DNA from: Tardiphaga robiniae
GTDB taxonomy: Bacteria > Pseudomonadota > Alphaproteobacteria > Rhizobiales > Xanthobacteraceae
Direction of reading: 5' to 3'
Assembly (NCBI RefSeq): GCF_013359755.1
Contig: NZ_JABMCJ010000092.1
Coordinates: 248,001-312,000, forward strand
Length of the DNA: 64,000 nucleotides
Shown here: positions 25,148 to 27,513 of the stretch, in pieces
Numbering within the stretch: position 1 is the stretch's first letter
Layout: every line of letters starts with the position of its first letter
Program-made: the position numbers and the translations under genes
Notes under the pieces: model-generated
Seen by the model: the letters and a program-made list of their open reading frames with translations, nothing else
The model's database searches: none
Told to the model about the DNA's origin: nothing

Positions 25148-25183
25148 TTGACGTTCCGGGCCGGCCATGGTGATTTGCCGGCC
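25148..25183 (+). promoter_or_regulatory. Candidate trp leader promoter
   Basis: TTGACG (25148-25153) is a good -35 box. A 17-base spacer leads to a weak -10 (TGATTT, 25171-25176). The predicted start point, seven bases on, falls at about the ATG of trpL (25184), so the leader mRNA may begin with its start codon. The -35 is clear, the -10 weak. Confidence 0.5.
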
Positions 25184-25231
25184 ATGAGCACCCCTGTCCG
25201 CAACAGCCGTCGTTGGTGGCGCACCTCCTGA
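25184..25231 (+). CDS. trpL: trp operon leader peptide
   Basis: A 15-residue frame, MSTPVRNSRRWWRTS, with two adjacent Trp codons, 119 bp upstream of trpE(G) and followed by hairpins of a transcription attenuator. When charged tRNA-Trp is scarce a ribosome stalls at the Trp codons and the antiterminator forms. No convincing ribosome site precedes the ATG, and the -35 box spacing suggests a leaderless mRNA, as established for rhizobial trpL in Sinorhizobium meliloti, where the released leader RNA and peptide also act in trans. Too short for ordinary gene finders. Confidence 0.85.
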   Translation: MSTPVRNSRRWWRTS

Positions 25232-25310
25232 AGAGGTGGTCGGTGCGATTTGCTTATTTTCAATCGTCGAAGGCCGCCATCGCAGTGCGACGGCCTTTGC
25301 TTGTTTGTTC
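25222..25310 (+). promoter_or_regulatory. trp transcription attenuator
   Basis: CACCTC (25222-25227) and GAGGTG (25233-25238) make the early pause hairpin around the trpL stop codon. AAGGCCG (25270-25276) and CGGCCTT (25291-25297), with an inner CGC/GCG pair, form the terminator stem, followed by a T-rich run TTGCTTGTTTGTTC. GGTGG-rich sequence near 25236-25245 could pair with part of the terminator to give the antiterminator. Order and spacing fit ribosome-mediated attenuation before trpE(G). Confidence 0.8.
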
Positions 25311-25350
25311 TGTGTGGCGCCCCCTCCGGCATGTTTCCTAAGAGGACACC

Positions 25351-27513
25351 ATGAACAGGACTGTGTTTTCGCTCCCCGCTGACAGCGCCTACAAGACCCG
25401 AGCGGGTCTCACCGTGGCGCGCCATGTCGATTATTTCACCGGCGGCACCGCGCTGGACGATCTGATCGTCCGGCTCGACCAGCGCCGCGGTGTGGTGTTG
25501 TCGTCGGGCACCACGGTGCCCGGCCGCTATGAGAGCTTCGATCTCGGTTTTTCCGATCCGCCGTTGCTGCTGGAAACCACCGGGACGGATTTCACGCTGA
25601 CGGCGCTGAACAAGCGTGGCCAGGTATTGATCGCCTTCCTCGCCGATACGCTGCAGGATCCCTGTATCGCGCTCGACGGGCGGACGATGTCGAAGCTCAA
25701 GGGCCACATCATCCGCGGCGAGGCGCCGGTCGAGGAAGACCAGCGCACCCGCCGCGCCAGCGTGATGTCGTTGGTGCGCGACATGGTCGCGCAATTGTTC
25801 TCCTCAGACGATTCCATGCTCGGGCTCTATGGCGCCTTCGCCTATGACCTCGTGTTCCAGATGGAAGACCTGAAGCAGAAGCGCACGCGCGAGGCCGACC
25901 AGCGCGACATCGTGCTGTATCTGCCCGACACGCTGCTGGCCTATGACCGCGCCACCGGCCGCGGCGTGGTGATGTCCTATGATTTCACCTGGAAGGATCG
26001 CACGACCGAAGGCCTGCCGCGTGATACGCCCGACAGCGGCTACAACAAGGCGCCGCGCCAGGGCTTTGCCGATCACGCCCCCGGCGAATATCAGAAGACG
26101 GTCGAGAACGCCCGCGCCGCTTTCGCGCGCGGCGACCTGTTCGAGGCGGTGCCCGGGCAATTATTTGCTGAACCTTGCGAACGCTCGCCGGCCGAGGTTT
26201 TCCAGCGCCTCTGCGTGATCAATCCGTCGCCTTACGGCGCACTGATGAATCTCGGCGACGGCGAATTTCTCGTCGCTGCCTCGCCCGAGATGTTCGTGCG
26301 CTCCGACGGTCGCCGCGTCGAGACCTGTCCGATCTCCGGCACCATCGCGCGCGGCGTCGATGCCATTGGCGATGCCGAGCAGATCCGGCAGTTGCTGAAT
26401 TCGGAGAAAGACGAGTTCGAACTCAACATGTGCACCGACGTCGATCGTAACGACAAGGCGCGCGTCTGCGTGCCCGGCACGATCAAGGTGCTGGCGCGTC
26501 GGCAGATCGAGACCTACTCAAAACTGTTCCATACTGTCGATCATGTGGAAGGCATGCTGCGGCCGGGCTTTGACGCGCTCGATGCGTTCCTGACCCATGC
26601 CTGGGCGGTGACGGTGACCGGTGCGCCGAAACTCTGGGCGATGCAGTTCGTCGAGGACAATGAGCGCTCGTCGCGACGTTGGTATGCCGGCGCCATCGGC
26701 GCCGTGTCATTCGATGGCGGCATCAATACCGGCATCACCATCCGTACCATTCGCATGAAGGACGGCCTCGCCGAAGTGCGCGTCGGCGCGACGCTGCTGT
26801 TCGATTCGGATCCCGTCGCCGAAGAGAAGGAATGCCAGACCAAGGCTGCAGCCCTGTTCCAGGCGCTGCGCGGCGATCCACCGAAGCGGCTGTCGGCCTT
26901 CGCGCCGGATGCAACCGGTTCGGGCAAGAAGGTCTTGCTGATCGATCATGATGACAGTTTCGTGCATATGCTGGCGGATTACTTCCGTCAGGTCGGCGCC
27001 ACCGTCAGCGTGGTTCGTCATGTCCATGCACAGACCGTCCTGAACCGCGAGAGTTTCGATCTCCTCGTGCTGTCGCCGGGGCCGGGACGTCCCGCCGATT
27101 TCGGCATCGGCAAGACACTCGATACCGCGCTGGACAAGAAACTGCCGGTGTTCGGCGTCTGCCTGGGCGTGCAGGCAATCGGCGAATATTTCGGCGGCGT
27201 GCTGGGCCAGCTCGCGCAGCCGGCGCATGGACGGCCGTCGCGCGTACAGGTGCGGGGCGGAAAGTTGATGAACGGTCTGCCCAATGAAATCGTCATCGGC
27301 CGCTATCACTCGCTGTTTGTCGAGCAGGACAGCATGCCCGATGTGCTCACCGTGACGGCCTCGACCGAGGACGGTGTCGCCATGGCCATCGAACACAAGA
27401 CGCTGCCGGTCGGCGGCGTGCAATTTCATCCGGAATCGCTGATGTCGCTTGGCGGCGAGGTCGGCTTACGTATCGTCGAAAACGCATTTCGGTTGGGGCA
27501 GCGCCCCAACTGA
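25351..27513 (+). CDS. trpE(G): Anthranilate synthase, fused components I and II
   Basis: 720 residues. Residues 1 to about 515 are the chorismate-binding TrpE part ([35 protein letters not shown], then [10 protein letters not shown] and [22 protein letters not shown]). The rest is a TrpG glutamine amidotransferase with nucleophile Cys in [16 protein letters not shown] and the His-Glu of VQFHPESLM. The fused form is usual in Rhizobiales. It makes anthranilate from chorismate and glutamine, the first step to tryptophan. Preceded by TAAGAGGACACC as ribosome site. Regulated by the leader attenuator. Confidence 0.96.

Follow-up and report, generated by a model that had tools for sequence, protein, structure and literature searches.

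A probably leaderless trpL attenuator upstream of the fused trpE(G) gene in a Tardiphaga-type genome

The leader of the fused anthranilate synthase gene trpE(G) in the window (the whole 64,000-nucleotide stretch of DNA that was analysed) is, with high confidence, a ribosome-mediated transcription attenuator, in which trpL is probably leaderless and whose released RNA would correspond, in the Tardiphaga type, to rnTrpL. The gene lies inside contig C5 of a Tardiphaga-type genome of 6.3 Mb, and its product is 99% identical to that of Bradyrhizobium sp. NFR13 (L002) and 97% identical to that of Tardiphaga sp. P9-11; trpDC is found in an operon apart from trpE(G), on contig C86. A search for relatives of trpE(G) gave 258, of which 80 were kept. 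One of these (L008) came without upstream DNA, and the other 79 loci together with the window provided the 80 leaders compared throughout this work. The pairing alignment consisted of 78 distinct leaders, and codon counts were taken from the 76 of the 80 leaders with 15 codons, 48 of which are distinct. The frames and their start signals are as follows.

25148..25176, + strand: putative promoter, with -35 TTGACG (25148-25153), a 17-nt spacer and a weak extended -10, TG-G-TGATTT (25171-25176), proposed from the conservation of TTGAC.
25184..25231, + strand: trpL, probably leaderless, encoding MSTPVRNSRRWWRTS, with its two Trp codons side by side at 25214-25219; read from the sequence, with an ATG frame containing WW in 80/80 leaders.
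25340..25346, + strand: Shine-Dalgarno-like AAGAGGA of trpE(G), read from the sequence.
25351..27513, + strand: trpE(G), fused anthranilate synthase of 720 aa, an open reading frame with 83-99% identity to the 80 relatives kept.

Direct reading gave trpL as a 15-codon frame from the ATG at 25184 to the stop codon TGA at 25229-25231, bearing out the initial annotation, which had placed a 15-codon trpL with two adjacent Trp codons 5' of trpE(G). Exactly two Trp codons, side by side, were present in trpL of 80/80 leaders; their number, presented at first as a peculiarity of this copy, is the norm in its relatives. The encoded peptides end in WWRTS in 73/80 leaders and in WWPT in 7/80. ATG frames of 10-20 codons containing WW occurred 17 times in 464 kb of the same genome, both strands counted, and only one of the 17, the window trpL itself, has TTGAC at 35-38 nt upstream. 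The trpL locus is beyond chance.

The -35 box TTGACG begins 36 nt 5' of the trpL ATG, which lies 8 nt past the end of the -10, and TTGAC was found 35-38 nt 5' of this ATG in 80/80 leaders. A Shine-Dalgarno (SD)-like 4-mer within 18 nt 5' of the start precedes trpE in 80/80 leaders and trpL in 0/80. Among these 80, a trpL with two Trp codons and no SD-like signal is the normal arrangement. As judged from these sequence features, the most likely transcription start is the A of the trpL ATG, which would yield a leaderless frame. The initial annotation had used the position of TTGACG to place the start at the ATG; the spacing stood, and the start itself would follow from it. The alternative, that trpL is not leaderless and that transcription starts farther upstream, with translation from an in-frame TTG (25175 or 25148) or from the ATG itself behind a 5' leader, appears highly improbable. 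Such in-frame TTG codons are indeed present upstream in the window, the -10 region matches poorly and a simple sigma-70 promoter scan did not pick up the trpL promoter; however, the in-frame upstream starts differ among relatives while the ATG is constant, and the TTGAC spacing, the lack of SD-like words before trpL and the leaderless trpL of Sinorhizobium meliloti (PMC10117765) all argue against it. In S. meliloti, the 5' end of rnTrpL is the trpL ATG, and trpL is translated (PMC7298713, PMC10117765). In Bradyrhizobium japonicum, 192 gene transcription starts were mapped exactly onto start codons, and leaderless frames are thus common in the group (PMC4842269); trpL is not mentioned in the main text of that paper. 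A 10-nt direct repeat, GCCGGCCATG, at 25160-25169 and 25178-25187 was dropped as a candidate, as it is not intact in L002.

Downstream of the Trp codons, three pairings were delineated, with z-scores for local folds against dinucleotide shuffles.

25222..25238, + strand: pause (1:2) hairpin, whose loop holds the trpL stop codon; 98.3% of cells paired in 78 leaders, z -2.23.
25235..25278, + strand: antiterminator (2:3), pairing 25235-25241 with 25272-25278 and 25245-25250 with 25262-25267; 98.9% of cells paired, z -2.18.
25270..25305, + strand: terminator (3:4) hairpin with a T-rich stretch to 25309; 87.6% of cells paired in 78 leaders, z -2.44.

The anatomy of this attenuator and its conservation were directly observed. 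The pause stem joins CACCTC (25222-25227) to GAGGTG (25233-25238), and the terminator stem joins AAGGCCG (25270-25276) to CGGCCTT (25291-25297), with an inner UCGC/GCGA helix at 25280-25283/25287-25290. Both the pause hairpin at the stop codon and the terminator stem with its T-run had been proposed in the initial annotation and were recovered here, together with the antiterminator, which had been left unnamed. Antiterminator and terminator have the segment 25272-25276 in common and are mutually exclusive. When the partner was slid, pairing of the antiterminator fell to 24-65% of cells in the 78 distinct leaders, and slid versions of the terminator paired in up to 71.0% of cells. By part, terminator pairing reached 98.8% for the basal stem, where five pairs were tested and one is gapped in 64 leaders; the inner helix was paired in 76.1% of cells. 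Terminator covariation in the 78 distinct leaders was not above shuffles. One pair changed on both sides was seen in each of the antiterminator and the pause hairpin and none in the terminator; compensatory changes are few because the leader sequences are close. The fold expected of the leader held in part, in that the local hairpins beat their shuffles by a modest margin (z -2.18 to -2.44, or about -2.2 to -2.4), whereas the fold of the whole leader was unremarkable (z -1.51). A simple terminator scan did not report the trpL terminator, and in many Bradyrhizobium leaders the tail 3' of the hairpin is T-poor. Conservation among the aligned sequences is the stronger evidence for an attenuator, compared with fold energies.

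These elements suggest a mechanism in which, given enough charged tRNA-Trp, the ribosome would get to the stop codon within the pause hairpin, segments 3 and 4 would then pair as the terminator, releasing an RNA of about 115-125 nt. With scarce charged tRNA-Trp, the ribosome would be stalled at the two Trp codons, allowing segments 2 and 3 to pair and trpE(G) to be transcribed. The released RNA may correspond to rnTrpL, and the peptide it encodes would be the Tardiphaga-type version of Bja-peTrpL, the leader peptide of B. japonicum. What we infer in this scheme is the position of the start, the existence of a terminated RNA and the Trp response.

Following the terminator, a further short element was recognised.

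25303..25319, + strand: GTTTGTTCTGTGTGGCG, a highly conserved element between the terminator and the trpE start signals; exact in 69/80 leaders, with at most two substitutions in 78/80.

Its consensus form is GTTTGTYCTGTGTGGCG, the 69 exact leaders carrying C at the Y position, and two leaders (L061 and L075) have more than three substitutions. In 73 leaders the element follows the hairpin after 6-9 nt and in five after 21-24 nt; because this spacing varies, the element is more than the tail of the terminator. Measured to trpE, the leaders fall into two classes, 65 with 29-32 nt and 13 with 41 nt, the latter class carrying an insertion beside the SD. About 12-16 extra nt were noted between the terminator hairpin and the element in L003, L006, L007, L037 and L080. 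In its own genome the 17-nt sequence has one exact copy, none at one mismatch and four at two mismatches (reversed control: three). It was found in 10/80 genomes of the family, one copy each, located just 5' of trpE(G) in three of them (G000, G035 and G112). A simple pattern search for parts of the element in 21 distant loci, with minus-strand loci left unturned, gave none but one partial match (L111). RNAalifold pairs the GGCG of the element with the CGCC of segment 3, and covariation is no test of these pairs because they hardly vary. Tentatively, the 17-nt GTTTGTYCTGTGTGGCG might regulate trpE(G) as an element of its own that is specific to the clade, either as an RNA strand pairing with terminator segment 3 (CGCC/GGCG) in read-through transcripts or as a protein binding site, a proposal that we consider rather unlikely. 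If it holds, trpE(G) would come under a further level of control, following attenuation.

Looking beyond the closest relatives, a trpE match was found in 121/121 genomes in a sample of the order. Thirty trpE loci were fetched, 23 of which (L103-L125, L103 being the window) carry a near-full-length fused trpE(G). Upstream of this gene, 21/23 of these loci have a short frame that opens with ATG and holds 2-4 Trp codons in a row (counts given without a chance background), with two adjacent Trp in five frames (three of them from the clade of the window), three in 15 and four in one. An SD-like word is absent before 19/21 of these frames, so that trp leaders lacking an SD are common across the sampled loci with a fused trpE(G). 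Six of the remaining seven loci are without an adjacent-Trp frame, and the one in L132 looks like chance.

The trpL peptide itself showed mixed signs of selection. Over the 48 distinct trpL sequences, pN/pS values, which are rough owing to codon bias, were 1.03 for codons 2-10 (0.49 for codons 2-4 and 2.0 for codons 5-8) and 0.27 for codons 11-15, a stretch coinciding with the pause hairpin. Arg9 was kept in 76/76 15-residue peptides with three synonymous codons, and its invariance may reflect some constraint on the peptide. A sequence-specific function of the trpL peptide is neither strongly supported nor refuted.

It has been reported that overproduction of Bja-peTrpL in B. japonicum lowers the mRNA of a smeR homolog and raises tetracycline resistance (PMC7298713), and, according to a review, the regulation of trpDC by rnTrpL extends to Agrobacterium and Bradyrhizobium (PMC7143759). 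These reports, together with a window peptide only five of 15 residues off Bja-peTrpL, the invariant Arg9 and the low pN/pS of codons 2-4, would be in keeping with an attenuator that is also a working trans regulator, its released RNA and peptide acting on the mRNAs of trpDC and of efflux regulators, as has been reported for S. meliloti and Bradyrhizobium. We give this reading an even chance. Against it stand the pooled pN/pS of codons 2-10 and the observation that Bja-peTrpL gave no increase of resistance in S. meliloti (PMC7298713), and therefore the targets are not freely shared.

The pairing tests bear on the same question. rplU-rpmA, named in the initial annotation, was included as a further candidate target. 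The leader (25184-25310) was compared with candidate mRNAs in regions of 950 nt, from -150 to +800 nt around the start. With accessibility weighting, a weak predictor in GC-rich genomes, trpD ranked 159, trpC 117 and rplU-rpmA 195 of 214 regions, so that no whole region was above background and the complementarity to trpDC and rplU-rpmA raised in the initial annotation gained no support from the prediction; this again speaks against trans action. Among 356 start windows, trpD ranked 24, rpmA 73, trpC 212 and rplU 355. The rank of trpD favours trans action at first sight, but the site was rejected as a candidate, being inside a dispersed palindromic repeat. A 15-nt match between the 3' arm of the terminator and a site 73-57 nt before trpD was likewise rejected, since it falls inside the palindromic repeat, for which the genome has 20 occurrences at E <= 0.001, counting this one and some incomplete copies. 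Inspected by eye in relatives, this match is intact in L002, has two changes in L003 and is missing from the others. This copy of the repeat, before trpD on the other contig, lies at L082 1170-1240, and the 15 nt that match the terminator arm of the leader are in its loop.

Whole-length duplex energies, computed without accessibility, ranked trpD 36/356, compared with 159/214 in the accessibility-weighted run, and windows beginning 0-200 nt past the trpD ATG came close to the top 1% of 693 coding windows; these energies were set aside because self-structure is ignored. The best of 36 trpDC windows (-9.8 kcal/mol) lies at about the 2nd percentile of 400 coding windows, which 36 tries alone would be expected to give, and was rejected as a candidate. 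When 28 related genomes were analysed with their own leaders (L024 and L075 left out), no single trpD site was common to all. A site at trpD +109 to +135 pairing with leader nt 5-33 was among the four best in 12/28 relatives, including the Tardiphaga MAG L004 (a count without background), and was outside the four best of the window genome. As a separate observation, about 37 kb before the window (G000 C5:207329-210653) an RND pump domain match is followed 170 nt on, on the same strand, by a TetR domain match (C5:210513), a smeABR-like arrangement.

Target regions at or below background and the pooled pN/pS of 1.03 would fit a leader that acts only in cis, with the short RNA and the peptide as by-products in this species, to which we assign somewhat less than an even chance. 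The functional trans data in the sister genus (PMC7298713) and the constraint on Arg9 and codons 2-4 stand against such a restriction, as does the conserved peptide end WW-R/P-T, though this same stretch forms the pause hairpin. Trans action of the Tardiphaga-type leader would be plausible by kinship, by extension from Bradyrhizobium, and target prediction gave it no support.

Comparison with known systems places this leader close to its published relatives. The best Rfam match, to RF00513 (Trp_leader), was a weak one over 25208-25264, pause hairpin included, with a score of 21.3 bits, below the gathering cut-off of 41, and no Rfam match at gathering level was obtained anywhere in the window. 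Among the literature matches listed, no report of the Tardiphaga trpL copy was found, which is weak evidence of absence, most subscription papers being outside the coverage. With rnTrpL (RcsR1) of S. meliloti the window has in common an attenuator RNA 5' of a fused trpE(G) and an SD-less trpL, and probably also the placing of trpL at the 5' end and a short terminated RNA, both of which are predictions for the window. The S. meliloti peTrpL, however, has three Trp codons and 14 aa (PMC7298713), compared with two Trp codons and 15 aa for the window trpL, and effects in trans on trpDC, sinI and smeR are reported in S. meliloti (PMC7298713, PMC7143759), whereas predicted pairing of the window leader with trpD and trpC is at background. 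The closest counterpart is Bja-peTrpL, MSTAVAPARLWWRTS (PMC7298713, 2020), which like the window peptide comprises 15 aa, starts with MST and ends with WWRTS; the two differ at residues 4, 6, 7, 8 and 10. Because only these 5/15 residues differ, the window peptide is no new kind. The kinship with the rnTrpL/peTrpL element suggested at the outset is supported by this shared length and end, and the idea of a distinct peptide with other targets is not, the similar Bja-peTrpL being published as acting in trans (PMC7298713). The Tardiphaga-type leader is now placed with the published Bradyrhizobium element and is best filed as a member of the Bradyrhizobium/Sinorhizobium trpL attenuator type, already known from its relatives.
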